Part shown: positions 1,293-34,661 of the stretch, in pieces
Numbering within the stretch: the stretch's first letter is position 1
Layout: each line of letters starts with the position of its first letter
Source of the DNA: Thermoanaerobaculum sp.
GTDB taxonomy: Bacteria; Acidobacteriota; Thermoanaerobaculia; Multivoradales; UBA5704
Reading direction: 5' to 3'
Length of the DNA: 64,000 nt
Assembly: GCA_021154885.1 (NCBI GenBank)
Contig: JAJKHS010000013.1
Span: 1 to 64,000 of the forward strand
Made by a program: the position numbers and the translations under genes
The notes under the pieces: generated by a model
The model's input: only the letters and a program-made list of their open reading frames with translations
What the model was told of the DNA's origin: nothing
Databases searched by the model: none

Positions 1293-1449
1293 TCAACGCG
1301 TACGGCGCTGGCGCAGCTTTTCCAAGATCTCATCGCGGACCTCGTCCCAAGGTCTACTTTCGGGAGGGCTTGGCGCGATGGGACTTCAGGCGCTCCTCTA
1401 TTATCTTTCGATGCCAATCGGGTATCGGAACAGATTCCTCGTCAGCCAT
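1293..1449 (-). pseudogene. Frameshifted addiction-module (antitoxin-like) protein
   Basis: From the ATG at 1449 the first frame reads IPDWHRKIIEERLKSHRAKP and stops at 1354. The neighbouring frame continues with PWDEVRDEILEKLRQRR and stops at 1293. Joined, the two pieces match the usual plan of small addiction-module proteins: an I-P-x-W-H...ERL helix followed by PW(E/D)EV...ILEKLR. A single indel near 1354-1362 therefore separates the halves. No RelE-type toxin follows. The start overlaps the end of the upstream glycosyltransferase gene by 8 bp. Confidence 0.6.
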
Positions 1450-2506
1450 TGCTTGATCCCCCTACCCCCGTCAACTTCTCAATCACCCGATCCCAAGTAA
1501 TCTCCCGCACCTTCTCCTGACCGGCGAGCCCCATCGCGCGGGTCATCTCGCGATCGCGATACAGGGCGTCGATCCGCGCGCCGATCTCCCTCGGAGAGTC
1601 CGGCGGGCAGACGTAGCCGTTGCGGCCGTCTTCCACGAACTCCAGGACACCGCCGGCGTCCGCGGTGGTGATCACCGGCTTGGCCGCTTTATAGGCTTCG
1701 ACGGTGACGTAGCCGTAGTCCTCGTCGTAGGGCGCGTAGCAGACGCCCAGGCAGTTGGCGTAGTGCTCGACGACGTCGCAGTCCTTCACCCAGCCGAGGA
1801 GCTCGACTTTCTCCTGGAGGCCGAGACGGGCGATCAGATCGGTCAGCGCCTCCCGCTCGGGGCCGGTGCCGGCGATCTTGCAGCGCACGGGGGTCTCGGT
1901 GTGCTTCATTGCCCGGACGAGGAGATCGAAACGCTTCAGCGGATCGAGACGGCCGACGGTGAAGACATAGTCGCCCGACGGGCCGGGGTGAACCAGGGCA
2001 TCGAGCTTCGGCGGCGGATAGAGCACCTCCGCCTCCACGCCGTTGTTGCGACGCAGACGGTCCGCCACGTTGCCGGAGATCGTGTAGACGGTGCGCGCTT
2101 CGGAGAGGGTGCGGCGGTCCATGGCGCGGATCATCTCCAGCACCTTGGCGTCCCGCGGCTGGCGGTCCGTGAAGTCGCTGTAGCGTGTGCCCAACAGGTC
2201 GTACGCCTGGCGGAGCTGGTGGATGAGCCAGACGACTTTATTGGGGTGCTTGATCAGATAGGACGGAAAACGCGTGGCGATCACGAGGTCGATCCGCTGG
2301 CCGCCCGCCTCGTCGAGGTTCACCAGCCGCCAGGCGAGGCTCCCCTTGAGCAACTCGACTCGCGAAGGCCAGTTGAAAGGAATGGCCGCCACGTCCACCT
2401 CGAAGCCGCGGGCCTTCAGTTCGTCGCGCAGAGAATCGACCAGCATCTCGGCGCCGCCGTGGGCGAAGGGCACCTGGGTGGCGCAGATGACGATGCGCGG
2501 TTTCAC
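1442..2506 (-). CDS. Glycosyltransferase family 4, 354 aa
   Basis: This is a retaining GT-B glycosyltransferase, expected at the cytoplasmic face of the membrane in polysaccharide assembly. The N-terminal Rossmann domain opens with IVICATQVPFAHGGAE. The C-terminal donor-binding domain starts near residue 175 with FTVGRLDPLKRFDLLVRA and includes IAGTGPEREAL, VELLGWV and the Glu-containing segment YGYVTVEAYKAAKPVITT, ending in DGRNGYVCPP. The start is GTG at 2506 and overlaps the previous stop in a GTGA motif, which indicates translational coupling to the 145-residue gene upstream. Sugar specificity cannot be read from the sequence. Confidence 0.9.
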   Translation of the reverse strand: MKPRIVICATQVPFAHGGAEMLVDSLRDELKARGFEVDVAAIPFNWPSRVELLKGSLAWRLVNLDEAGGQRIDLVIATRFPSYLIKHPNKVVWLIHQLRQAYDLLGTRYSDFTDRQPRDAKVLEMIRAMDRRTLSEARTVYTISGNVADRLRRNNGVEAEVLYPPPKLDALVHPGPSGDYVFTVGRLDPLKRFDLLVRAMKHTETPVRCKIAGTGPEREALTDLIARLGLQEKVELLGWVKDCDVVEHYANCLGVCYAPYDEDYGYVTVEAYKAAKPVITTADAGGVLEFVEDGRNGYVCPPDSPREIGARIDALYRDREMTRAMGLAGQEKVREITWDRVIEKLTGVGGSSNG

Positions 2507-2940
2507 ACGCCGTCCCCGCCGCAGTCTGTTTCCTCCAGCCGCTGCTCCAGGGCCTCGAGGCGTGCCGAGACCTGCCGCAACTCGCGCGCCGTGCGGTCGT
2601 TGGCCTCCACCAGGTCTTCAATAAGCCGCGCCGCGGCCTGGTTGAAGCCGTTCTGCTGCTCCAGCACCGGCCGCAGGAACCACTTGAGGAAGACGTGGAA
2701 GAACGCCTTGCGAACGAAGACGATGAGCCGCCCCCAGCGCGGCCGGTGGGAAAAGGCCACCGGCTCCTGGACGTACTCGCGCGCCTTCAGGGCGAGCAGG
2801 CCGTTGCGGGTCTCCTCGCCGCCGGCCGCCAGGGTGGTGGACTCGGCCCGGCGCTGCCGCACGCCGGAGCGGACCTTCTGGAGCACCTCGGCGACGCGGA
2901 GGTCGTCGGGCGCCGGAGGGGACGGGGAGTCGGAGGGCAT
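2503..2940 (-). CDS. Hypothetical coiled-coil protein of the glycan locus, 145 aa
   Basis: The N-terminus is Pro/Ser-rich. A hydrophobic-aromatic segment near residues 75-93 (GRLIVFVRKAFFHVFLKWF) could associate with the membrane. The C-terminal third is a predicted coiled coil (ARLIEDLVEANDRTARELRQ continuing to about residue 137). Proteins of this shape often precede GT4 genes in polysaccharide clusters, where they may hold enzymes at the membrane; that role is inference. The gene overlaps the downstream glycosyltransferase by 4 bp and is divergent from the GT4 gene that starts at 2969. Confidence 0.75.
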   Translation of the reverse strand: MPSDSPSPPAPDDLRVAEVLQKVRSGVRQRRAESTTLAAGGEETRNGLLALKAREYVQEPVAFSHRPRWGRLIVFVRKAFFHVFLKWFLRPVLEQQNGFNQAAARLIEDLVEANDRTARELRQVSARLEALEQRLEETDCGGDGV

Positions 2941-2968
2941 CGGGGGTCAACGATACACTCTTCCCCGC

Positions 2969-4261
2969 ATGGCCGAGAAACCCCGCGCCGTCCTCCGCGC
3001 CGTCCTGCGCTTCGGCTCGCCCCGCCGGCTGCGGCGGACGTGGGCCTGGCTGCGGGGGATCGCGGCGGAGGTCCGCCGCCGCCGGGCGGAGCCGCGGCTG
3101 ACGGTGGCGGTGGACGTCAACTCCTTCTACGAGCCGCTCACGGGGGTGGGCTGGTACCTCCACCAGATCCTCGTCCACCTCGCGGGGAGAGACGACATCC
3201 GCCTGCGCCTCTACGGCCAGAGCCTGGTGGAGGGGGACCCGGGGGCGCCGCGGCCGGTGGTGGACTTCCCCGCCGGTCCGGCCGTCGAGAGGGTGGTCTA
3301 CGACGCGCCGGACGGACTGGTGATCCCACCCTGGCGGGCCCGGCAGGTGCTCCGCCGCCTCGCCCCGCTGCTGGCAGCGGCGGATGGCAACCAGGTCCTC
3401 TTCGCCCCCAACTATCTCTTTCCCTCGCTCTTCCGGCTGGCCCGGGGCGCGCGGGTGGCCACCATTCACGATCTCGGAGTACGGAAGGTGCCCTGGGCCG
3501 TGCGCCCCGATTCGGGGGAGGCGTTGCTCGAGCGGCTGGACCGGACGCTCTTCGAAGCGGACCTCCTCCTCACCCCCAGCGAAGCCGTGCGCCAGGAGCT
3601 GATCGAGATGGGGGTCGCGCCGGGCCGGGTGCGGGCCATCCACCACGGCACGGGGCTGGTGGCGGAGGGCGAAGCGACGACGACGCCCGCACGGACTCCC
3701 CCCCGCTACGCCCTCCACGTGGGCACGGTGGAGCCGCGGAAGAACGTCTCGACTCTCCTCGCCGCCTGGCGGTTGCTGCGCCTGCGCCGGGCCGAGCCGC
3801 CGCCGCTGGTGCTCTGCGGCGGCTTCGGCTGGCAGGCGGAGGCGGCGCGGCGGGAGATCGGCGCGGCCGAGGCCGAGGGGTGGCTCGTCCATCTCGGCTA
3901 CGTGAGCGCGGAGGAGCTGGCGGCTCTCTACCGCGGAGCCGAGATGGTGGCCCTACCCTCCTTCTACGAAGGCTTCGGCCTGCCGGCCGTCGAGGCCCTG
4001 CGGGCAGGCGCGCCGCTGGTGGCGAGCGATCTGCCGGTGCTGCGGGAGGTGGCGGGCGACGCGGCCCTCTACGCCCCGCCGGACCGGCCCGACCTGTGGG
4101 CGGACCGCGCCGGCGAGCTGCTGGTGGATGACGGTTTGCGAGAAGAGCTTCGCCGCCGCGGGCGGGAGCGCGCGCGCCTCTTCGACTGGGGGCAGGCGGC
4201 GGCGGAGACGGCGCGGGCCTTTCGCGCGGCGGCTGACCCGCCCCTACCCGAAGCTTTGTGA
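2969..4261 (+). CDS. Glycosyltransferase family 4, 430 aa
   Basis: The open frame extends far upstream, but the plausible start is the ATG at 2969 (MAEKPRAVLRAVLRFG), which opens a basic N-terminal helix before the Rossmann domain (LTVAVDVNSFYEPLTGVGWY). Hallmarks are ATIHDLGVRKVPWAV, LLTPSEAVRQELIEMGV, the linker to the second domain ALHVGTVEPRKNVSTLLAAW, and the donor-site segment ALPSFYEGFGLPAVEALRAG. It therefore resembles the mannosyl- and rhamnosyltransferase subgroup that starts with a GVG(W/R)Y loop. It is followed after 12 bp by a membrane protein gene on the same strand. The acceptor and donor sugars are unknown. Confidence 0.9.
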   Translation: MAEKPRAVLRAVLRFGSPRRLRRTWAWLRGIAAEVRRRRAEPRLTVAVDVNSFYEPLTGVGWYLHQILVHLAGRDDIRLRLYGQSLVEGDPGAPRPVVDFPAGPAVERVVYDAPDGLVIPPWRARQVLRRLAPLLAAADGNQVLFAPNYLFPSLFRLARGARVATIHDLGVRKVPWAVRPDSGEALLERLDRTLFEADLLLTPSEAVRQELIEMGVAPGRVRAIHHGTGLVAEGEATTTPARTPPRYALHVGTVEPRKNVSTLLAAWRLLRLRRAEPPPLVLCGGFGWQAEAARREIGAAEAEGWLVHLGYVSAEELAALYRGAEMVALPSFYEGFGLPAVEALRAGAPLVASDLPVLREVAGDAALYAPPDRPDLWADRAGELLVDDGLREELRRRGRERARLFDWGQAAAETARAFRAAADPPLPEAL

Positions 4262-4273
4262 AACACTTCCTCA

Positions 4274-6508
4274 ATGCGATCGGCCGCCCTCGCCACACTC
4301 GCGACCGCCGCCGTCCTCATCGCCGGAGCGCTGATTCCAGGGCCTCCCCGCGCCCTCCAGATCCTGGTGGCGTTCGCGATGCTCGGCGCCCTGGGAGCCG
4401 CGGGCGACCGGCTGGCCCGCTGGCTTGTCCCGGATTTCGGGCTGCTGTCGCGGGCCGTGGCCGCGTTCACCTTCGCCGTGGCGCTGGCCGTGGTGCCCGC
4501 CACCTGGATGGGGCACTGCGGAGTGATGCGGCCGGCGCCATTCCTGCTCTGGACCGCCGCGGCGCTCCTGCTCAGCCGGCTGCTGCCGGCGAGGACCGGG
4601 GAAGGGCCGAGCGAGGCTCCAGCCATCCTCAACCGATGGGACCACTGGGGCCGCGCCGAGTGGGCGCTGCTCCTCGCCGCCACGGGAGCCGTCGCCCTGG
4701 TCGGCGTCAAGTCCATGTTCCACTACCGCTGGGCACCGGTGGGGCTGGGACCGGACGACGAGTCCTACCACCTCGCGGCCATGGCCGTCTGGCACCGGTT
4801 CGGCGACCTGCGGATGATCAAGTTTTCGATGGGGGACACCAGCACGACCTTCTATCCCGTCGGCGGCGAGGTCTGGTCGTGGGTGCTGCTGGCGCCGTTC
4901 CGGGACAGCGACGTCCTCGCCCGCTGGGCCCAGCTTCCGTTCGCCGTCTTCTCGCTCGTGGCCACCGCGGCCATCGGCCGGCGCCTCGGGCTCTCGCCGC
5001 GGTCCGCCGTGCTGGGAGCGCTCCTCTTCGCCGCGATCCGGCGGGCGTTCCCCGTCCTGGCGCTGACGGCCGGCAACGATCACAGCGCGTCCTTCTTCAC
5101 CCTGGCGGCGATCGACGGCACCCTGGCGCTCGCCGCCCAGCCGGCGGCCGGGGTGGCGGTCTATGCGGGCGCGGCCCTGGGGCTGCTCCTGGGCACCAAG
5201 TACACCGGCCTCCTCTTCGCTCCGGTAATCCTCGGCCTGCTCGCCCTGGCCGGCCTGATCGCCAGACTGCGCGCCTCGCCGGGTGAACGGCTCCCCGTCC
5301 GCACCCTGACGGGGATCGCTGTCCTCCTGGCTGTGTCGGCCGCCGTGGCAGGCGGCTACACCTACCTGCGCAACTGGGTGACGACGGGCAATCCCATCTT
5401 CCCCGCGCCGGTGAGCCTCTTCGGACTGCAGATCTTCCCCGGCTGGGAGGGGGCGACGCTGGCGTCGCGGCGCAACGCTCCCGAGTTCCAGATCGACGTC
5501 TGGAGCTTCCTGCTCCGGCGGACGGACCTCCTCGGCTCGTTCTTCCCCTACACCATGCTGCCCGCGGCGCTGGCGGCGCCGCTGGTGGCGCTCTGGCGGC
5601 GGGCATGGCGGGACGCCCTGGTGCTGATCCTGCCCGTGGTCTTCTTCCTCGAGTTCCTCTACCTGATGCACGATCACCGGGACATGCGCTACTTCCTCCC
5701 CGGGGTGGCGCTGGCGGCGATGGCCTTCGCCTGGCTGCTGGAGCAGGCCGGCCCCAGGGCCTCGGCCCTGCGCATCCTCCTGCTCCTGGCGCTGACCTTC
5801 CACGTCACCCGCAAGCTCGACCGCAGCGGCGCCCTGGAGGCGGCGGTGGCGCTCGCGCTGATCGGCCTGGGGTGGGCGGCTGTCCGCTGGGGACCGCGGC
5901 TGGCGGCGGCCCTGGCCCGGCCCGCCGCGCGGCCATGGCTGGCGGCGGGTACCGCGGCGGCGGTCGCCGTGGCGGCCCTCCCCCTGGGGGCCGCGGTGAC
6001 GAAGTACCAGGCGGTCAAGCTCACTCAGCGGCCGCCGGCCTTCGCCCTGGAACGGATGGCGGGACCGGACGGCGCGGCGGTGGCGTACGCCGGCCTCAAC
6101 AAGCCGTACCTGTTTTTCGGCAGCCGGCTGCAGAACGACCTCCGCATCGTTCCCAGGAAGGGCGAGCTGGAATCCCAGTACTACCAGTGGGGCGGAACGG
6201 TGGAGTTCCCCTTCGCGTTCGAGGAAGACGACTATCTCCGCTGGCGGCGACGCCTGGAGTGGCTGGGCATCGACTTCGTGGTGATCCACCGCTCACCCTC
6301 GGAGGATCCGGAGCGGGCCTGGATGGTGGGGCGTCCGCGAGCGTTCAGGCTGGAGTACTTCGACCCCGCAACCGAGATCTGGCGAGTCGTGCCCGCGCAG
6401 GAGAGAGCCCTGCGGCGCCACGGAGAAGGCTCGCCAGAGCCAGGGACAGGAGGAGAAGGAGCGGCACCGACGCCTGGACGAGGAAGCGGTTCCAACTCGT
6501 CCGGATGA
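4274..6508 (+). CDS. Large polytopic membrane protein, glycosyltransferase-like, 744 aa
   Basis: There are many hydrophobic segments (for example TLATAAVLIAGALIPG near the start, and several between residues 270 and 560) and a large loop containing GPDDESYHLAAMAVWHRFG. This acidic loop after the early membrane segments resembles the first periplasmic loop of GT-C enzymes such as ArnT/PMT. A role as a polyprenyl-sugar-dependent transferase or glycan-modifying enzyme is likely, but the family is not pinned down. The C-terminal soluble part contains YAGLNKPYLFFGSRLQ and WRRRLEWLGIDFVVIHRSPS. The last roughly 36 codons overlap the convergent gene at 6345-7790, and recognisable protein character ends near IWRVVP. 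Confidence 0.75.
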   Translation: MRSAALATLATAAVLIAGALIPGPPRALQILVAFAMLGALGAAGDRLARWLVPDFGLLSRAVAAFTFAVALAVVPATWMGHCGVMRPAPFLLWTAAALLLSRLLPARTGEGPSEAPAILNRWDHWGRAEWALLLAATGAVALVGVKSMFHYRWAPVGLGPDDESYHLAAMAVWHRFGDLRMIKFSMGDTSTTFYPVGGEVWSWVLLAPFRDSDVLARWAQLPFAVFSLVATAAIGRRLGLSPRSAVLGALLFAAIRRAFPVLALTAGNDHSASFFTLAAIDGTLALAAQPAAGVAVYAGAALGLLLGTKYTGLLFAPVILGLLALAGLIARLRASPGERLPVRTLTGIAVLLAVSAAVAGGYTYLRNWVTTGNPIFPAPVSLFGLQIFPGWEGATLASRRNAPEFQIDVWSFLLRRTDLLGSFFPYTMLPAALAAPLVALWRRAWRDALVLILPVVFFLEFLYLMHDHRDMRYFLPGVALAAMAFAWLLEQAGPRASALRILLLLALTFHVTRKLDRSGALEAAVALALIGLGWAAVRWGPRLAAALARPAARPWLAAGTAAAVAVAALPLGAAVTKYQAVKLTQRPPAFALERMAGPDGAAVAYAGLNKPYLFFGSRLQNDLRIVPRKGELESQYYQWGGTVEFPFAFEEDDYLRWRRRLEWLGIDFVVIHRSPSEDPERAWMVGRPRAFRLEYFDPATEIWRVVPAQERALRRHGEGSPEPGTGGEGAAPTPGRGSGSNSSG

Positions 6509-7790
6509 TGAATTCCGGGGTCAGGCTGATCGTGTAGGAGATCCAGGCGATTCCCAGAGGAGCGGCGGCAGCGAGCAGCAGGGGGAGGGTGGCGCGCCGC
6601 CGCAGGCCCCGCCAGCCGGCGGCCAGCACCAGGGGCACCGTCCACCAGAAGATCCCCCATTCCGTGAAGCTCTTCATCTCGACGCCGGCCCTGGCCGCGA
6701 TCCGCGGCGCGCGGGTGAGGAGCCCCGGCCACAGCAGGGACCAGGAGACGATCTTCTCGTAGCTCTCGAAGCGCTCGGGAATGCCGGCCCGCCAGGAGAA
6801 GAGCAGCACCAGGGCGAGGACGAGCGGCAGGGCCGCCAGGGCGAGCGGTCGCCAATGACGCCGACATCGTCGCCAGCGCGAGAAGGAATAGAGACCGGCG
6901 AAGACGAACGCCGCCGGAGCGAGCGCCGCGCCTTCGGCCTTGGCGAGGGCGGCAGCCGCCAGGAGGATGCCCGCCGCGAGACCCGCCGAGGGGCGCAGCC
7001 GCGGCGCCAGGAGGAGCGCGAGGCCGCCCCCATAGAAGCACGCCAGCGGCAGGTCGCTGTAGGCGGAGATCGCGCCGCCCGACAGCTCGAAGGCCGGGCA
7101 GGGGAGCAGGGCGGCGGCCAGCGTCGTCCAGCCGGCGGCGGCGCGCCCCGCGAGCTCCCGCGCGCCGCCATAGACCACCAGCAGCCAGACGGGAAAGAAG
7201 GCGGCGTACAGCGGCCGGAAGGCGGGGTCGTCCCAGTCCGCCCGCGTCGTCTCCAGCACGGCCACCTGCGCCACCGGCAGCAGCAGCGGGTACCAGGGGT
7301 GGGTGATGTACCAACCCTTCCGCGTCAGCACGCTCGCATCGACCGTCCCCTCGTGGCGCACGTAGCGGGCCTGGGCGGCCCAGGTCATCCAGCCGTCCCA
7401 GTCGAGCACGGGTTGGGTGAGGGCCTCGCAGAGGACGGCGAGGGAGATCACGGCGCAGACCGCCACCACCGCCCACTCCCAGAGCCTCAGCGCATGCACC
7501 GGAGCAGCCAGAGACCGTAGATGACGGCGGCGCAACCACGAGACCACTCCCGCCGCCACCGGTGCACCGGCCACGGCCAGGATGGCGGGAGGGCGTAGGG
7601 GCACGGCGAGGAGGTGGGAGAGGGCGTAGAGCATCCCGGCCGTCCAGGCGACGCCCAGCAGCCAGGCATAGGCGAGGTGACGGCCCGGCCGCAGAGCGCG
7701 TACTGCCGGGAGGATCTCGGCGAGACCGGCTCCCGGCACGGCGAAGAGCGCCACTCCCGCGAGGCCGGCGAGGGCCTCAGCGGCGACCAA
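6345..7790 (-). CDS. Polytopic membrane protein, cassette copy A, 481 aa
   Basis: About ten hydrophobic segments alternate with short loops. Conserved features are DWDGWMTWAAQARY and GWYITHPWYPLLLPVAQ, which look like the acidic and aromatic periplasmic loops of GT-C type glycosyltransferases. A second copy with the same architecture lies at 9518-10960. The start is TTG at 7790, overlapping the upstream 155-residue gene by 14 bp, exactly as in the second cassette. The C-terminus extends about 18 residues beyond where its paralogue ends, and this tail lies inside the convergent gene ending at 6508. The likely role is in cell-surface glycan synthesis; the substrate is unknown. Confidence 0.75.
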   Translation of the reverse strand: MVAAEALAGLAGVALFAVPGAGLAEILPAVRALRPGRHLAYAWLLGVAWTAGMLYALSHLLAVPLRPPAILAVAGAPVAAGVVSWLRRRHLRSLAAPVHALRLWEWAVVAVCAVISLAVLCEALTQPVLDWDGWMTWAAQARYVRHEGTVDASVLTRKGWYITHPWYPLLLPVAQVAVLETTRADWDDPAFRPLYAAFFPVWLLVVYGGARELAGRAAAGWTTLAAALLPCPAFELSGGAISAYSDLPLACFYGGGLALLLAPRLRPSAGLAAGILLAAAALAKAEGAALAPAAFVFAGLYSFSRWRRCRRHWRPLALAALPLVLALVLLFSWRAGIPERFESYEKIVSWSLLWPGLLTRAPRIAARAGVEMKSFTEWGIFWWTVPLVLAAGWRGLRRRATLPLLLAAAAPLGIAWISYTISLTPEFIIRTSWNRFLVQASVPLLLLLSLALASLLRGAAGLSPARARLARSRLRGRSTPA

Positions 7791-8244
7791 GCTTCCCCTT
7801 CAACCAGCGCGGGAGAGCGGAGCGGTCGACGAGCACCGGCGGCCTGCCAGGATAGGCGACGACCACCCAGCGCGGTCCGGCCGGGAGGCTGGCTACCCAC
7901 CGTGGCGACTCGACCACCTCGCTCAGCCGTCCCGCGAAGCGGGCCCGCCGCGGCGCGAGCTGATAGCGCAGGAAGAGCGTGGCCCCCTGCCGCTCCGCGC
8001 CGCCGTCGACGAGCAGGTACTCGCCGTCCGGCGGAACGGCGCGGCGGATCTCCTCCTCGGCGTCCACCCAGGCGGCGCCCAGCGCCCGGCGGCGGGCCTG
8101 GCGGGAGTCCTCCCCCAGCCGCGACGCGGCCTGGACGATCCGCACGCGGGCGTTTCTCCACGCCTGTGGAGTCGCCACCAGCAGAGCTACGGCGAACAAG
8201 GCCAGGATCGAGACCCGGAACAAGGCACCAGCGCGGGAGAGCAC
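7777..8244 (-). CDS. Membrane-anchored small protein, cassette copy A, 155 aa
   Basis: A single N-terminal hydrophobic helix (GALFRVSILALFAVALLVAT) is followed by a soluble domain facing the periplasm. Notable segments are DGEYLLVDGGAERQGATLFL, LRYQLAPRRARFAG and AGPRWVVVAYPGRPPVLVDR. The start is GTG at 8244. The gene is translationally coupled (14-bp overlap) to the polytopic membrane protein downstream and has a paralogue of identical length at 10947-11414. I do not know a named family; the fixed pairing suggests that the two proteins act as one unit. Confidence 0.7.
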   Translation of the reverse strand: MLSRAGALFRVSILALFAVALLVATPQAWRNARVRIVQAASRLGEDSRQARRRALGAAWVDAEEEIRRAVPPDGEYLLVDGGAERQGATLFLRYQLAPRRARFAGRLSEVVESPRWVASLPAGPRWVVVAYPGRPPVLVDRSALPRWLKGKLGRR

Positions 8245-8268
8245 GGCGGTACTCTACAATGCCGCGCC

Positions 8269-9384
8269 ATGCCAGACCGCCCCACCGTCGCCGTCGACCT
8301 CCGGGCCCTGGTGCCCGCCGCCACCGGCATCGGCGTCTACACCCGCTCGCTGCTCCTGGGACTGGCGGCCCGCGGCGGCCTGCGTTACTTGGGGATGGCG
8401 CACCGCCCGCCGCGCGAGGCCGGCGAGCTCGCGGCGGCGGGGATCGGCCTCGAGCACCAGGAAGCTCCGCTCGGCGTGATCTGGCAGCAGCTCCGGCTGC
8501 CGCGCCGGCTGGCTCGCGGCGACGTCGACCTCTTCTGGTCGCCGCTCATCACCCTGCCCCTGCGCTGTCCGGTCCCGGCCGTGGCCACGGTGCACGACCT
8601 GACGGCCATGCTCATGCCCGAGATGCACACGCTCAAAGTGCGGTGGAGCCTCCTCCCCTTCCTGCGCTCCTCCTTCGAGCAGGCCCGGCGGCTGGTGACC
8701 ATCTCCAGGGCCACGGCGGACGACCTGGCGTTCCATTTCCCCCAGTGCCGGGAGAAGATCCGGGTCGTCTACCCCGGGATCGACCCCGAGTTCCGGCCGG
8801 GCGAGCCGGCGGAGATCGCGGCCACCCGGGCGGAGCTGGGAGCGCCGGAGGGGTACGTCCTCTTTGTGGGGACCCTTGAGCCGCGCAAGAACGTGGGCAT
8901 CCTGATCGATGCCTGGGAGATGCTGCGGGCGGAGGACCCGCGCCTCCTCCCCCTCGTCCTCGCCGGCCCCAGCGGCTGGGGGAGCGAGCGGCTGGCGCGG
9001 CGCATCCAGGCCCTCGCTCCCCTGGGGGTCCAGTCGCTGGGGCGAGTGGAGCGCTCGCGGCTGGTGCGGCTGTTCCAGGCCGCCCGCGTCTTCGTCTACC
9101 CGTCGCTCTACGAGGGCTTCGGCTTCCCCGCCGCCGAGGCCCTGGCCTGCGGCGTGCCGGTGGTGGCCTCCAACAGCTCCAGCCTCCCCGAGGTGGTGGG
9201 TGACGCCGGCCTGCTGGTGGAGCCGGGCGACGCCGGCGCCTTGGCGGCGAAGATCGCCTCCATCCTCGGCCACCCCGGCCGCGAGGCCGAGCTGCGGGCC
9301 CGCGCTCCCGGCCAGGCCGCTCGCTTCCGCTGGGACCGGGCGGCGAGGGAGATGGAAGAGGTGTTCTTCGAGGCGCTGGGTTAG
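8269..9384 (+). CDS. Glycosyltransferase family 4, 371 aa
   Basis: This is a GT-B fold enzyme with all expected landmarks. The N-terminal domain starts VAVDLRALVPAATGIGVYTR. It continues with TVHDLTAMLMPEMHTL, VTISRATADDLAFHFP, the linker YVLFVGTLEPRKNVGILIDA, and the donor-binding segment VYPSLYEGFGFPAAEALACG near residues 280-300. It is divergent from the membrane cassette A gene (24 bp apart) and convergent with cassette B. The GIG(V/T)Y loop groups it with the genes at 2969 and 11598. Mannosyl- or rhamnosyltransferase activity is plausible but not provable here. Confidence 0.92.
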   Translation: MPDRPTVAVDLRALVPAATGIGVYTRSLLLGLAARGGLRYLGMAHRPPREAGELAAAGIGLEHQEAPLGVIWQQLRLPRRLARGDVDLFWSPLITLPLRCPVPAVATVHDLTAMLMPEMHTLKVRWSLLPFLRSSFEQARRLVTISRATADDLAFHFPQCREKIRVVYPGIDPEFRPGEPAEIAATRAELGAPEGYVLFVGTLEPRKNVGILIDAWEMLRAEDPRLLPLVLAGPSGWGSERLARRIQALAPLGVQSLGRVERSRLVRLFQAARVFVYPSLYEGFGFPAAEALACGVPVVASNSSSLPEVVGDAGLLVEPGDAGALAAKIASILGHPGREAELRARAPGQAARFRWDRAAREMEEVFFEALG

Positions 9385-24816: not shown

Positions 24817-24848
24817 TTCCTTCAAAGCCTACAGGAAAGGAAGGACCC

Positions 24849-25016
24849 ATGAAGCGCCACAAGATGGAAAAGCTGGACAACGAGCTGTTCACTCCTCTGA
24901 CGACCGAAGAGGCCCGCAGGGTGGGCGGGGGCAACGACATCGATACGTTCGTCCATGTCAAAACAAATGTCTTGGGCATCGAAGATTCGATTCGTGTCAG
25001 AGACGACCTCCTGTAG
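24849..25016 (+). CDS. Grasp-with-spasm RiPP precursor peptide, 55 aa
   Basis: This short peptide, preceded by AAAGGAAGGA, reads MKRHKMEKLDNELFTPLTTE for its first 20 residues, followed by EARRVGGGN. The leader has the LxxxxFxxLTxEExxxVGGG plan seen in GG-type leaders, and the predicted processing point is after Gly28. The 27-residue core contains possible donors for ester or amide links (Thr33, Lys38, Thr39, Ser47) and acceptors (Asp30, Asp32, Glu45, Asp46, Asp52, Asp53), but no Cys. The next genes encode an ATP-grasp ligase and a SPASM protein, which supports assignment as their substrate. Core boundaries and ring pattern are inferred. Confidence 0.8.
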   Translation: MKRHKMEKLDNELFTPLTTEEARRVGGGNDIDTFVHVKTNVLGIEDSIRVRDDLL

Positions 25017-25082
25017 TCGCTAGCTCGGAAGGGAGTGGTGACGCCACTAGCCGCTCCCTTCCTCTCCATCGCAGAGGCTGCA

Positions 25083-26108
25083 ATGATCCTGGTGTTGAGT
25101 CAATCCTCCCACGAGCTGACCACGGAAGAGGTCATGGACTGGCTGGAGGACCTCGGGCTGCCGTGCCTGCGCCTCAACGGAGAGGACCTCGACGCGGACT
25201 CCTCGTGGAGCGCCAGAGTCCCCGGAGGAGACTTTGAGATCACCCTCGACGGTCGCACGCTGAAGCTGGCCGCAGGGGACATCCAAGCGGTGTGGTTTCG
25301 CCGCTGGGCGCATGGACGGCGCGATCAACCCGTCGAGCTCATCCTCGACGATTCGCGAGAGCGCCAGGAGGCTCAGCGCGAGATCTCCAGCCACCTCGAC
25401 CAGGAAATGGCGAGGCTGAGCGGTTATCTCTTCTCACAGCTCCACGACGCCGCCTGGCTCAGCCGACCCTCCATCACCAGGCTCAACAAGCTGGAGGTGC
25501 TGGAGGAGGCCGCACGCGCCGGGCTCGAAGTGCCGGCAACGCTGATCACGACCCGCAAGAAGCACCTCGAAGAGTTCATGCGAACGCACGGTGGCATCAT
25601 CACCAAGTCGATCGGGGAGTCGCGGGCCCTCCACCTGGGAGACTACTTCCATACGATGCTGACGGCCGAGATCGGCACCGACCTGATCGCTCAACTGCCC
25701 GAGGATCTGTTTCCGTCTCTCTTTCAGGAGAAGCTCGACAAGCGATACGAGATCAGAGCCTTCTATCTTGCCGGTGAGCTCTACTCGATGGCGATCTTCT
25801 CGCAAATCGACGACCAGACCAGGGTCGATTTCCGCCACTATAATAACGTGAAACCGAACCGGGTCGTCCCCTTCAAGCTGCCCGCCGACATCGCCGACAG
25901 GATTTCGCGGCTGATGGGGGCGCTGGAGCTCGAAACGGGGTCCCTGGACCTGGTGAAGACGACCGACGGCCGTTACGTCTTCCTCGAGGTGAACCCCGTC
26001 GGCCAGTTCGGGATGGTCTCCAAACCCTGCAACTACCACCTGGAGCAGAGGGTCGCGGAGATCCTTGCCAGAAAGGCCCGCCATGGAAACTCCCCCCAAC
26101 CTGTTTGA
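25083..26108 (+). CDS. ATP-grasp peptide ligase, grasp-with-spasm type (GwsG-like)
   Basis: Enzymes of this family join side-chain hydroxyl or amine groups of a precursor peptide to Asp/Glu carboxylates using ATP (graspetide chemistry). The N-terminus MILVLSQSSHELTTEEVMDW is typical of MvdD/GwsG-type ligases. ATP-grasp landmarks are ARLSGYLFSQL, LNKLEVLEEAARAGLEVPAT, GGIITKSIG with the nucleotide-binding Lys, FQEKLDKRYEIRAFYLAGEL, and the metal-binding end FLEVNPVGQFGMVS. I prefer ATG 25083 (GAGG upstream) over the GTG at 25035, which would add 16 residues. It follows the precursor by 66 bp and overlaps the next small gene by 26 bp. At 341 residues it has family-typical length. Confidence 0.88.
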   Translation: MILVLSQSSHELTTEEVMDWLEDLGLPCLRLNGEDLDADSSWSARVPGGDFEITLDGRTLKLAAGDIQAVWFRRWAHGRRDQPVELILDDSRERQEAQREISSHLDQEMARLSGYLFSQLHDAAWLSRPSITRLNKLEVLEEAARAGLEVPATLITTRKKHLEEFMRTHGGIITKSIGESRALHLGDYFHTMLTAEIGTDLIAQLPEDLFPSLFQEKLDKRYEIRAFYLAGELYSMAIFSQIDDQTRVDFRHYNNVKPNRVVPFKLPADIADRISRLMGALELETGSLDLVKTTDGRYVFLEVNPVGQFGMVSKPCNYHLEQRVAEILARKARHGNSPQPV

Positions 26109-26289
26109 GATCCTCACCGAGGATGCGAAGGATCGGGTCCCCGTGGCCTACCGTGCCGTCGAGCCGATTCCGATCGCAGGCGCGCCGGAGCTGCGCCTGG
26201 TGGAAAGCCGGTCTTATCGTGCCAGGGGCTACTTCTGCAAGGCGTTCTACAAACCTGTCTCCAAATGCGTGGCGCCGGAGCCGGATTAG
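26083..26289 (+). CDS. Small unknown protein inside the RiPP operon, 68 aa
   Basis: The frame METPPNLFEILTEDAKDRVP to CKAFYKPVSKCVAPEPD lies between the ligase and the SPASM protein. It overlaps the former by 26 bp and ends 6 bp before the latter. A coding reading is favoured by this tight packing and the lack of any other frame filling the gap. The C-terminal tail carries two Cys (FCKAFYKPVSKC) and many basic residues. It has no GG leader. It could be a partner or recognition protein, a second substrate, or a separated part of the maturase; I do not recognise the family. Confidence 0.55.
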   Translation: METPPNLFEILTEDAKDRVPVAYRAVEPIPIAGAPELRLVESRSYRARGYFCKAFYKPVSKCVAPEPD

Positions 26290-26295
26290 ACGGCG

Positions 26296-27315
26296 ATGCA
26301 AGACAAGAGCCGGATCTTCATGCTCTTCGCCTGCTGCATTCCCGTGCTCGGGGCGCGCCGCAGCACGATCTGTGACCTCCAGCGCCAGACGTTCCGGTTC
26401 ATTCCCAACGGTCTCCACGAGATCCTCACAGAGCACCGCGGCAAGACGGTCGCCGGGATCGAAGCCGCCTATGGCCATGAATACGACGCCGAGATCGCGG
26501 AGTACTTCGAGTTCCTGATCGCCCACGAGCTCGGCTTCTGGTGCGACGACCCCGACTGCTTTCCGGAGATCGACCTCACCTGGAAGGCCCCGGAGCGGAT
26601 CACCAACGCCATCCTCGACGTCGACGCGGAGTCGCGGCACGACTTCGACAAGATCCTCCGCGAGTTGGACGACCTGGGCTGCAAAGCGCTTCAGATACGC
26701 TTCTACGACGCCGTCGGGCTCGCCGAGTTGGAAAGAGTCCTGGAGCTTGCGCGCTATGGACGCCTGCGGTCCATCGATCTCCTGGTGCGCTACAGCGAGG
26801 AGATGGCGGAAGTCGACCTGGAGCCGCTGCTGAGGAAACATGGACGCCTGAGCAGCATCGTCGTCCATTCGGCGCCGGAGGACCGTTTGAAGAGACTGCC
26901 AAGCGGCGCGCTGCTCTCCTACCGCACGAAGAGCGTCGATTCTCCGCACTGTTGCGGGGAGGTCCACCCGCGATACTTCGTGACCAACATCGGGTGCTTT
27001 TCAGAAGCCCAGAAGCACAACACCTGCCTCAACAAGAAGATCTCCGTCGATACCCGGGGCGAGATCAAGAACTGCCCTTCGCTCGCCAGGTCGTTCGGCA
27101 ACATCCGCACAACGTCCCTTCACAACGCCCTGGCGCACCGGGATTTTCGGGAGCTGTGGTCGATCAACAAAGACCGGATCGACGTGTGCAGGGACTGCGA
27201 GTTCCGCTATGTCTGCACCGACTGCAGGGCCTACATCGCGGAACCGCAGAACCTCTACTCCAAACCTTCCAAGTGCACCTATGATCCTTATACCGCCGCG
27301 TGGCGATCCGCTTGA
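26296..27315 (+). CDS. SPASM-domain peptide maturase, grasp-with-spasm type (GwsS-like)
   Basis: The C-terminal SPASM domain carries the cluster-binding pattern Cys244-x15-Cys260, then Cys298-x2-Cys301-x5-Cys307-x2-Cys310 and Cys327 (DVCRDCEFRYVCTDCRAY). The N-terminal half begins RIFMLFACCIPVLGARRSTI and shows no CxxxCxxC radical SAM motif. To my knowledge this fits the SPASM proteins of grasp-with-spasm cassettes, which accompany a GG-leader peptide and an ATP-grasp ligase. The role may be precursor binding or iron-sulfur-dependent modification; the chemistry is unproven. It starts 6 bp after the small gene and closes the operon. Confidence 0.85.
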   Translation: MQDKSRIFMLFACCIPVLGARRSTICDLQRQTFRFIPNGLHEILTEHRGKTVAGIEAAYGHEYDAEIAEYFEFLIAHELGFWCDDPDCFPEIDLTWKAPERITNAILDVDAESRHDFDKILRELDDLGCKALQIRFYDAVGLAELERVLELARYGRLRSIDLLVRYSEEMAEVDLEPLLRKHGRLSSIVVHSAPEDRLKRLPSGALLSYRTKSVDSPHCCGEVHPRYFVTNIGCFSEAQKHNTCLNKKISVDTRGEIKNCPSLARSFGNIRTTSLHNALAHRDFRELWSINKDRIDVCRDCEFRYVCTDCRAYIAEPQNLYSKPSKCTYDPYTAAWRSA

Positions 27316-30264: not shown

Positions 30265-32040
30265 TCATGAGGAAACTGTACCTGGCCGGCTTTTCATGGC
30301 CTCGCGCACGCAAGCCTCGATAGCCGCCTCGACGCCGGCGAGGTCGGGCAGCAGGTTGCGGCGGAACTCGGGCCGCAGCCGGCGGTGGAGCCGGCGGACC
30401 TGGCGCCGCGCCGCGTCGGCCCGCCGCTGGAGGGCCGCGAGCGGGCCGGCCGGCGAGGCCGCGGCGAGCTCGGCCATGCGCTCGACCTGCTGGTAGCCGG
30501 CGAGCGCGGCCTGGCGGAAGTCGTGGGCCGCCAGGGTCTGCTCCGTGAACTTGCGGAAGTGCAGGCCCTTGATCGCCAGGGCCACCGCGTGATCGAAGCG
30601 CGACGGCCGGTGGAGCAGGGTGCGCGCGAGGAACTTCAGATACGCCGGCCCCTGGCGCGAGAAGACCTGCCGGCGCAGCGAGCGCAGGAGGGTGAGCAGA
30701 TCGGCCCTGGCGATCCGCCCGCGACGCCGGGGCCGGTGCCGGTCGCCGAGCCGGGAGAGGAGCGTCCAGCAACGCTCGAAGTAGCTCTCGAGGCCGCGGC
30801 CGTAGAGAGAGTCGAGCACCCGGCGATAGCCGTCGACGAGCACTTCGAGCTCGAGCTCGGGCCGGAAGTTGACGGTGATTTCGACGTTGTTGCCGCTCGA
30901 CTCGGCGAGCAGACGTCCCTCGCGCTCGAGCCGGGTGTAGAGATCCGTCCCGCGCAGGGCGGTGAGCAGGCCGACCATCGCCATCGGGATGCCGGCCTCC
31001 TGGATGAAGGCGACCTGAGCGTCGAAGACCTCGGGACCGTCGCCGTCGAGGCCGAGGATGAAGCCGCCGGAGACCTCGATCCCCTTCTCCTGGATCTTCC
31101 GCACCGCGTGCAGGAGGTAGTGGTCGTCGCCGCGGTCGGTGTTCTGGGCCTTCTTCGTCTGCTTCAGGGCCTCGGGGTTCGGGCTCTCGATGCCGAGGAA
31201 GGTCATGGTGAAGCCGGCCTCGACCATGGCGTCGAGCAGCGGCTCGAGCTTGGCCAGGTTGACGCTCGCCTCCGTGTAAAACTCAAAAGGGTGGCCGTGC
31301 TCGCGCTGCCAGGCGGCGAGCGCGGGCAGCAGGCGCAGCGCCTCCTTCTTGTTGCCGATGAAGTTGTCGTCGACCAGGAAGACGGACCCGCGCCAGCCGA
31401 GCGCGTGGAGACAGTCGAGCTCGGCGAGCATCTGCTCGTTGGACTTCGTGCGCGGCACCCGTCCGAACAGCTTGGTGATATCGCAGAACTCGCAGTCGAA
31501 GGGACAGCCGCGCGAGAACTGTAGCGCCATCGAGGTGTAGGCGTCGAGGTCGAGCAGATCGAAGCGCGGAACCGGGGTCGCGGTGATCGCCGGCTTGCTC
31601 TCCGGCCGGTAGATCCGTTCGGCGCGCCCCGCCTCCCAGTCGGCGACGAAGCGCGGGAAAGTCTCTTCGACCTCGTCGAGCAGATAGTGGTCGGCACCGG
31701 GGATGTCGGCGTGGAAGGTCGTGGGGTGAGGCCCGCCGACCGCCACCGGCTTGCCCTTGCGATTGCACCGCGCGATGACCTCGCGCAGGGAGCCCTGCTG
31801 CACCACCATGGTCGAGGTCAGCACCAGGTCGGCCCAGTCGAGGTCCTCGTCGGCGAGCTCGGCAACGTTCATGTCCACCACGCGGAGCTGATAGCGCTCG
31901 GGGAACAGGGCCGCCACCGTCACCAGGCCGAGCGGCGGCATGGCTGAGCGCTTGCCCGCGAGCTCAAGGGCGTAGCGGAAACTCCAGTACGAGGGTGGAA
32001 ATTCGGGATAGACGAGGAGCGCCTTGGGGGCTTCGGTCAC
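30265..32040 (-). CDS. B12-binding radical SAM protein (DUF4070-type), 591 aa
   Basis: The N-terminal cobalamin-binding-like domain (about residues 5-150) includes PPLGLVTVAALFPERYQLRV and VAVGGPHPTTFHAD. The radical SAM motif is SRGCPFDCEFCDITKLFGRV near residue 178, followed by VFLVDDNFIGNKKEA, MTFLGIESPNPEALKQTKKA and GGFILGLDGDG. The order resembles the family that includes the hopanoid methylases HpnP and HpnR, but a methylation substrate is not implied. The C-terminal 170 residues are basic and helical. The start is GTG 32040. It is convergent with the amidase. Confidence 0.88.
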   Translation of the reverse strand: MTEAPKALLVYPEFPPSYWSFRYALELAGKRSAMPPLGLVTVAALFPERYQLRVVDMNVAELADEDLDWADLVLTSTMVVQQGSLREVIARCNRKGKPVAVGGPHPTTFHADIPGADHYLLDEVEETFPRFVADWEAGRAERIYRPESKPAITATPVPRFDLLDLDAYTSMALQFSRGCPFDCEFCDITKLFGRVPRTKSNEQMLAELDCLHALGWRGSVFLVDDNFIGNKKEALRLLPALAAWQREHGHPFEFYTEASVNLAKLEPLLDAMVEAGFTMTFLGIESPNPEALKQTKKAQNTDRGDDHYLLHAVRKIQEKGIEVSGGFILGLDGDGPEVFDAQVAFIQEAGIPMAMVGLLTALRGTDLYTRLEREGRLLAESSGNNVEITVNFRPELELEVLVDGYRRVLDSLYGRGLESYFERCWTLLSRLGDRHRPRRRGRIARADLLTLLRSLRRQVFSRQGPAYLKFLARTLLHRPSRFDHAVALAIKGLHFRKFTEQTLAAHDFRQAALAGYQQVERMAELAAASPAGPLAALQRRADAARRQVRRLHRRLRPEFRRNLLPDLAGVEAAIEACVREAMKSRPGTVSS

Positions 32041-33026: not shown

Positions 33027-34661
33027 ATGCACGAGAACGAACGTTTCGACGTAGCCATCCTGGGAGCGGGTATCGGCGGGACGATGCTGGCGGCGATCCT
33101 CGCGCGTCAGGGCAAGCGTGTGCTGGTGCTGGAGAAGGGGAGCCATCCGCGCTTCGCGGTCGGCGAAGCGTTGCTGCCCCAAAGCACGCTGTGGATGTGG
33201 ATCCTCGCCCATCGCTTCGACGTGCCCGAGATCCAGCACCTGACCCGGTTGGATTCCATCTACGAGCACGTCGCGCCGACCTGCGGGATCAAGCGCGCGC
33301 TCGGCTTCCTTTATCATGAGGATGGAAAGCGGCAGGATCCCCTGAAGTCCAACCTGCTCATCGCGCCGAGCACGCCGCTGACCAGCGAGAGCCACCTCTT
33401 CCGCCAGGACGTCGACCTCTACCTGCTGAACGCGGCGATACGCTATGGCGCCGTTTACCGTGATCGCGTGGACGTCCACGAGCTCGAGGTGGACGACGCC
33501 GGCGTGCGCCTGCGCACCGACGCCGGCGACGAGTACTCGGCGCGCTTCCTGGTCGACGGAGCGGGCTATCGCTCGCCGCTCGCCGAGCGCTTCGGCCTGC
33601 GCGAGAAGCCGACCCCCCTGGAGACCCAGTCGCGTTCCATCTTCACCCACATGACGGGAATCAAGTGCTACGACGACTTCCTGCTGCCGGGAGAGTCGCC
33701 CGGGCTCTCGGCCGGCTGGTCCGAAGGCACGCTCCACCACGTCTTCGAGGGCGGCTGGTTCTGGATGATCCCCTTCAACAACGTCCCCGGCTCGCAGAAC
33801 CCGCTGTGCAGCGTCGGCCTGACGCTCAACATCAAGCGTCACCCCGACACCGGGCTGCCGGCGGAAGAGGAGTTCTTCCGCTTCGTCAATCGCTATCCGA
33901 GCATCGCCCAACAGTTCGAAGGCGCCACCGCCGTCCGCGACTGGGTGAAGACCGGCCGGCTGCAGTACTCGGCGACCGGTGGCGCCGGGGATCGCTACTT
34001 CCTCATGGCGCACGCCCACGGCTTCATCGACGCGCTCTACTCGCGCGGCATGATCACCACCTTCGAGGTGCTCTCCGCCCTCGCCGGTCCGCTGCTCGCG
34101 GCGCTGGACGAGGACGACTTCTCGCGCGACCGCTTCGCCTACGCCGAGCGACTGCAGCACGCCATGCTGCGCCAGAGCGACCGCGTGGTCAACAACTCCT
34201 ATCGCGCCTTCCCGAGCTTCCCCTTGTGGAACGCCTGGCTGCGCGTCTGGCTGATCGCCGAGATCTTCGGCGACCTGCGACTCTTCAGCATCTGTGTCAA
34301 ATACCTGGAGACCCAGGACAAGTCGCTCTTCGACCGGCTGGAGGCGGATCCCCTGATCGGTTGCAGCGCACCGGGGGAGGACGAGGTCACGGATCTGGTC
34401 AATCACGCCGAGGAGGTGCTCGCCCGCTACGAGCGCGGCGAGTTGGACGAGGAGGCCGGCGCGGCGTCGATCCTCGCCTCCCTCGACCGCGCCGCTTGCA
34501 TGCCACCGGTCCACGGCTGGGGGGACCCACAGGATCTCCACCTCGACTACATCCCCGAGAAGCTGGCGCGCACGATCGGCTGGGGTCTCACCGCGGCGCC
34601 GCAGCGCATCCGCGACCGCTTTTTCATCTTCAACCCCGCCGTGCTTGGCATGGGGGCTTGA
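33027..34661 (+). CDS. Flavin-dependent halogenase-like monooxygenase, 544 aa
   Basis: The FAD-binding motif FDVAILGAGIGGTMLAAILA at residues 7-26 is followed by VGEALLPQSTLWMW. The segment GGWFWMIPFNN near residue 241 matches the WxWxIP motif that distinguishes flavin-dependent halogenases from ordinary monooxygenases. Further family segments are FLVDGAGYRSPLAERFGL and the helical C-terminal region around YAERLQHAMLRQSDRVVNNS. ATG 33027 follows AGAGAGAAGGA; the much longer open frame upstream is not coding. The substrate is unknown and there is no flavin reductase beside it. It may instead be a non-halogenating relative. Confidence 0.78.
   Translation: MHENERFDVAILGAGIGGTMLAAILARQGKRVLVLEKGSHPRFAVGEALLPQSTLWMWILAHRFDVPEIQHLTRLDSIYEHVAPTCGIKRALGFLYHEDGKRQDPLKSNLLIAPSTPLTSESHLFRQDVDLYLLNAAIRYGAVYRDRVDVHELEVDDAGVRLRTDAGDEYSARFLVDGAGYRSPLAERFGLREKPTPLETQSRSIFTHMTGIKCYDDFLLPGESPGLSAGWSEGTLHHVFEGGWFWMIPFNNVPGSQNPLCSVGLTLNIKRHPDTGLPAEEEFFRFVNRYPSIAQQFEGATAVRDWVKTGRLQYSATGGAGDRYFLMAHAHGFIDALYSRGMITTFEVLSALAGPLLAALDEDDFSRDRFAYAERLQHAMLRQSDRVVNNSYRAFPSFPLWNAWLRVWLIAEIFGDLRLFSICVKYLETQDKSLFDRLEADPLIGCSAPGEDEVTDLVNHAEEVLARYERGELDEEAGAASILASLDRAACMPPVHGWGDPQDLHLDYIPEKLARTIGWGLTAAPQRIRDRFFIFNPAVLGMGA

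Follow-up and report, generated by a model that had tools for sequence, protein, structure and literature searches.

Why a peptide-modifying operon should keep a SPASM protein without the CX3CX2C motif of radical SAM enzymes is the question raised by this locus, a small grasp-with-spasm operon in the genome of a soil-type bacterium and one of three such loci found there. The window, meaning the whole stretch of DNA that was analysed, spans 64,000 nucleotides of a Thermoanaerobaculum sp. contig, and the features of the operon within it are listed in Table 1. The answer proposed here, judged on balance to be probable, is that the locus is a graspetide-type operon in which a non-radical partner, formed by the LPL and SPASM proteins, presents the leader and core of the precursor to a ring-closing ATP-grasp ligase.

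Table 1. Features of the grasp-with-spasm operon, with positions in the window and the basis of each assignment.
Feature	Position	Strand	Basis
Ribosome-binding-like sequence AGGAAAGGAAGG	24833-24844	+	Read from the sequence
Precursor peptide, 55 aa	24849-25016	+	Leader profile; leader common to the paralogous loci
Precursor leader MKRHKMEKLDNELFTPLTTEEARRVGGG	24849-24932	+	
Precursor core NDIDTFVHVKTNVLGIEDSIRVRDDLL	24933-25013	+	
13-bp hairpin in the precursor/ligase gap	25027-25062	+	Fold z-score -2.7; equalled by 3 of 200 shuffles
ATP-grasp peptide ligase GwsG, 341 aa	25083-26108	+	TIGR04192, PF21068, alignment
LPL-type protein, 68 aa, with conserved FYKPVSKC region at its end	26083-26289	+	LPL profile; position
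SPASM protein GwsS, 339 aa, without the radical SAM CX3CX2C motif	26296-27315	+	TIGR04193
Winged-helix part of GwsS resembling an RRE (RiPP recognition element), about residues 7-85	26314-26550	+	Modest-confidence structure model
Degenerate radical SAM-like barrel of GwsS, about residues 100-226	26593-26973	+	Structure model
SPASM domain of GwsS	26953-27303	+	PF13186 and TIGR04085, above cut-off

The first-pass annotation had described a complete grasp-with-spasm operon consisting of a 55-residue precursor with a GG leader, an ATP-grasp ligase and a SPASM protein lacking CX3CX2C. The coordinates and order of these three genes, all on the plus strand, agree with the open reading frame (ORF) listing and the sequence, the leader carries GGG at residues 26 to 28, and the radical SAM motif is absent both from the window protein and from its 22 relatives. 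The family assignment was borne out by a TIGR04192/TIGR04193 search, in which both enzymes passed the equivalog cut-offs, and the gene order, GG leader and missing radical SAM motif all fit a grasp-with-spasm system. Completeness held for the three named genes, but a 68-aa gene between the ligase and SPASM genes had been left undescribed, even though the test suggested at the time spoke of four genes. The earlier reading is supported with two refinements, namely the addition of a fourth, conserved gene of the LPL type and the interpretation of the SPASM protein as better read as a non-radical partner. All four frames are intact, with GC3 of 75-84%, and the operon has a GC content of 54-62% against a window mean of 67.7%. 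Several neighbouring genes were also noted: a LuxR/NarL-type response regulator (PF00072, PF00196; 23930-24591, minus strand) that is divergent from the precursor gene and a possible regulator, a B12-binding radical SAM protein with DUF4070 (30265-32040, minus strand) lying 3 kb off the operon with no link to it seen, and an FAD protein with a weak tryptophan halogenase match (PF04820; about 33050-34661, plus strand) that is possibly a separate tailoring enzyme.

Against TIGR04192 (cut-off 230) the ligase GwsG reaches 291.9 bits, and it falls far under the cut-offs of other ATP-grasp maturase models. It contains the PF21068 pre-ATP-grasp domain and the motifs VDFRHYN and LEVNPVGQF, which are kept in the alignment of relatives; the first includes the DFR motif named as critical for graspetide ligases (PMC13097080). 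Two starts are possible, a GTG at 25035 given by the ORF listing and an ATG at 25083, the latter being favoured because it agrees with where the TIGR04192 model and the aligned relatives begin. The precursor and ligase share one frame in the window, and a model of their read-through chain was discarded as a source of interface information, the precursor part having a pLDDT of about 30 with no interface readable. A fourth, distant ATP-grasp match occurs in the same genome (G000:C32:124635-125156), at 71.5 bits on TIGR04192 and below the cut-off.

The precursor ATG is preceded at 4 nt by the good ribosome-binding sequence of Table 1. A leader profile built from 19 precursors, all from other genomes, was scored against the 454 ORFs of the window and ranked the 55-aa ORF first (E 1.2e-5; runner-up E 14), which places the assignment beyond chance. 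The window leader KMEKLDNELFTPLTTEEARRVGGG is close to a leader from a Bacteroidota locus, MKFEKINDEKFTPMTKEQLNNLRGG. The precursor matched no NCBIfam family at E <= 1 and no Pfam family, and most precursor clusters of branch 5 likewise match no model (PMC8939145). The core contains the Thr, Lys and Ser donors (T33, K38, T39 and S47) and the Asp and Glu acceptors (D30, D32, E45, D46, D52 and D53) that had been pointed out for side-chain rings; it has no Cys, a residue present in the cores of some relatives. A gapless alignment with the core from contig C136 of the same genome pairs D32, T33, D46, I48, R49 and D52, however none of the comparisons of the window core with paralogous cores was significant; the best, with the C136 core, gave p 0.09, its alignment being reached by 9% of shuffles, and the other cores gave 50-80%. 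A ring pattern drawn from this alignment was dropped for that reason, and since the core comparison is too weak no particular ring pattern is supported.

The three loci of this 8.2 Mb genome (the window locus on contig C13 and those on contigs C136 and C81) differ in their arrangement. In the C136 locus the order is ligase, LPL, SPASM, with two precursors at the end, while C81 has a precursor, a ligase and a single 435-aa ORF in which an LPL sequence (MPDSR...KPISRCC) is joined through a linker of about 30 residues to a SPASM protein. This natural fusion is a direct hint that the LPL and SPASM proteins act together. Measured against the window proteins, those of C81, C136 and a congener (G001) are 60-68% identical for SPASM, 51-52% for the ligases and 39-44% for LPL, and the precursors are 24-38% identical with the leader best conserved. 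About 4 kb off the grasp-with-spasm locus of the congener, two small ORFs (L041, 1552-1725 and 1355-1624) encode a GG motif and Cys-rich C-termini (MKKTTRKLSLSRESLRRLDEEELRRADGGAATSPCPYTLQVLACYSRDVHTCYTCTV and a relative), and may represent another RiPP precursor family.

The 68-aa ORF begins before the ligase gene has ended, and 6 nt separate its own end from the SPASM start. A profile of 19 LPL-position proteins, none from the window genus, ranked it first of the 454 window ORFs (E 3.5e-5; runner-up E 4.3). In 22 of 22 relative loci with both enzymes, either a small ORF of 40-85 aa separates the ligase and SPASM genes, at the same place in nearly all of them, or, as in C81, the small protein is fused to the SPASM protein. 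Because of this rank and conserved position, the ORF is, on sequence grounds, a real gene in the position of the LPL family. That family, known from Bacteroidota loci, was named in an earlier survey, according to which its genes invariably come immediately before the SPASM gene; a PqqD-like role was guessed at there (PMC8939145). The LPL protein had no match among solved structures. The idea that the C-terminal LPL cysteines supply extra cluster ligands was abandoned, as most Bacteroidota LPL proteins have no such Cys.

Of particular interest is the SPASM protein itself. GwsS scores 341.4 bits on TIGR04193 (cut-off 175), and CX3CX2C occurs nowhere in any of 23 family members. The SPASM ligand patterns CX9-15GX4C and CX2CX5CX2-3C...C are present within residues 244-327. 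An AuxII-like set (C298/C301/C307/C327) is found in all 23 GwsS proteins, and an AuxI-like set (C220/C244/C260/C310) is kept or lost as a block, with all four residues in 17 of the 23 and none in the other 6. By comparison with SPASM enzymes such as anSME, these sets presumably bind auxiliary clusters II and I ([4Fe-4S]), respectively. The block-wise loss suggests that each ligand set forms a site of its own and that the family can do without cluster I. SAM cleavage by GwsS would be unexpected since the radical SAM cluster motif is absent, and this absence throughout the family, together with the universal AuxII-like set and the block-wise AuxI-like set, supports the non-radical reading.

A structure model was built from the LPL-SPASM read-through chain, which is one frame in the window; rows in which a joint alignment of LPL and SPASM fragments had misplaced the small proteins were left out of the models. 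With a mean pLDDT of 55 the model is of modest confidence: about 65-89 in the barrel, about 51-77 in the N-terminal part, mostly below 55 in the SPASM part and about 30 in the LPL part, where no interface with GwsS could be read. Its best PDB match by Foldseek is CteB, a maturase of the RRE-radical SAM-SPASM kind, with LynD and TruD next. The N-terminus of GwsS (model positions 74-165, approximately residues 3-94) best matches the RREs of TbiB1 (Z 7.8) and PbtF (Z 7.5), with further fold matches to LynD (7.3), TruD (7.1) and MccB (5.9), although Z scores under 8 may by themselves reflect a common fold arrangement. Searches by sequence found no RRE in GwsS with Pfam or PDB profiles, and alignment by hhalign with three PqqD proteins of the same genome was unconvincing, its score being reached by 3 of 100 shuffles. 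Because the listed matches are RREs of RiPP proteins, the modelled N-terminus is likely an RRE, a beta3-alpha3 winged-helix domain that binds leaders. The barrel part resembles radical SAM barrels and TIM barrels of other kinds, with Z scores of 5.8-7.5.

The presence of an LPL-position gene in 22 of 22 two-enzyme loci and the in-frame C81 fusion support the reading of GwsS and LPL as a partner of the ligase. A counterpoint to this is that the Fe-S clusters could have a redox role instead of a structural one. GwsS would then be a true second modifying enzyme, acting on the peptide by Fe-S redox chemistry or together with a radical SAM enzyme encoded elsewhere, as might be expected from its conserved Cys ligands, of which there are up to eight for two clusters, from the cysteines in the cores of some relatives and from the published survey, which labels the SPASM protein a radical SAM-kind peptide maturase (PMC8939145). 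This is considered unlikely, however, given a family with CX3CX2C in 0 of 23 members and an AuxI-like cluster that 6 of them dispense with as a block, a window core free of Cys, and operons in which, among those examined, no radical SAM gene was seen between the genes. It is also conceivable that the LPL protein is not a partner but a second precursor, as it is small, adjoins the enzymes and has a conserved Lys-Pro-Ile-Ser-Lys region that places Ser and Lys near the C-terminus, with Cys in this genus. The protein has no GG leader, however, is always in single copy directly before the SPASM gene, forms one reading frame with the SPASM protein in C81, and is conserved in its C-terminal part whereas cores vary; this explanation is regarded as highly improbable.

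No promoter match was found for the operon, and in one sister genome from the genus no copy is present, as would fit a system decayed or silent in this genome; nevertheless, four intact frames with the GC3 noted above, and the retention of three loci with SPASM proteins 60-68% identical and matched precursors, make decay very unlikely. A strong hairpin directly 3' of the precursor gene or genes, as in the window, is also present in C81, C136 and the congener, and is thus kept in four of four genus loci whether precursors come first or last. This hairpin may keep precursor mRNA in excess of enzyme mRNA.

No exporter adjoins the window locus. Three C39 peptidase genes are present in the genome, and a complete NHLP exporter (TIGR03794, TIGR03796, TIGR03797 and a TolC-like protein) lies within the 74000-85725 region of contig C81 (positions 1341-9259 of that region, L096), approximately 6-14 kb from the C81 locus; it could serve all three loci. 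In the phylum, the window genome was the only one of 396 sampled genomes to exceed the TIGR04193 cut-off. Matches occur in two of three genomes of the genus and in another lineage of Acidobacteriota (L050, MO_135.B14), which has one, and 12 of 395 sampled genomes of Bacteroidota, the phylum of Yeosuana marina, are over the cut-off. A tree built from 23 SPASM proteins joins the window clade (support 0.993) to the L050 protein and a Microscillaceae protein with support 1.0, and this tree and the low GC of the operon are compatible with past transfer between phyla. The MO_135.B14 lineage also carries a 1446-aa ORF (L095 4971-9311; G401:C125) in which an N-terminal part like that of GwsS and a SPASM domain are joined to a middle part containing an HEIIH motif and to an ABC exporter (PF00664, PF00005). 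Its neighbours are a small ORF and an ATP-grasp gene of the MvdD type; from its domains, it is possibly an all-in-one protein for modification, cleavage and export.

We infer the product, the ring number and the role of the partner, and the pathway may be pictured as follows. The 55-aa precursor would be made first, its transcript possibly favoured over that of the enzymes by the hairpin. GwsS, having lost the radical SAM cluster and kept a leader-binding-like N-terminus, one or two auxiliary Fe-S clusters and the remains of a barrel, would act with LPL as a non-radical partner, holding the leader and offering the core to the ligase. The ligase, by analogy with its ATP-grasp family, would phosphorylate Asp and Glu side chains and close ester or amide rings to Thr, Ser and Lys of the core. 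Cleavage after GGG and export would be provided in trans by the C39-peptidase NHLP exporter elsewhere in the genome. Extended to the whole family, this would make GwsS a former RRE-radical SAM-SPASM enzyme that is now an Fe-S scaffold and, with LPL, an obligatory leader-binding partner of the ligase, a generalization offered tentatively, at slightly less than an even chance.

Among characterized systems, microviridin and plesiocin share the MvdD-type pre-ATP-grasp domain, the DFR motif and a core rich in Thr, Ser, Lys, Asp and Glu, however no partner requirement is known for their ligases (PMC13097080) and their core patterns differ. Rosaritide synthesis (mir) likewise relies on an ATP-grasp ligase, and its MirC provides a precedent for a ligase that requires a partner, the N-domain of which weakly resembles an RRE (PMC13097080); the rosaritide partner is SurA/PpiC-like, whereas the window ligase would putatively depend on a degenerate radical SAM-SPASM protein and a small protein. 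CteB and related RRE-radical SAM-SPASM maturases have the same order of RRE-like domain, barrel and SPASM domain as the GwsS model, but GwsS has no radical SAM cluster motif. The closest likeness is to the grasp-with-spasm systems themselves (TIGR04192/TIGR04193; branch 5 of PMC8939145), probably graspetide group 14 of PMC13097080, with which the window shares enzymes above cut-off, an upstream GG-leader precursor and an LPL-position gene before the SPASM gene; no product of such a system was found in the open literature searched. Branch 5 has been called highly specific for Bacteroides (PMC8939145), whereas the window host belongs to Acidobacteriota, and the window system further differs from known examples in a precursor without an NCBIfam model and in the fusion of LPL and SPASM in sister locus C81.

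The operon therefore belongs to a known kind of system and, as far as the papers searched show, what is new is the host phylum, for which the survey has no branch 5 example, the LPL-SPASM gene fusion, and a domain anatomy that includes block loss of cluster I ligands and an RRE-like N-terminus. The Acidobacteriota loci are compact test cases, with short Cys-free precursors, three loci in one genome and one natural LPL-SPASM fusion, and the C81 fusion protein can be used as it stands for structure and binding studies. Where the published survey counts the SPASM protein among radical SAM enzymes, these loci offer a testable alternative, a cluster-bearing, leader-binding pseudo-enzyme.
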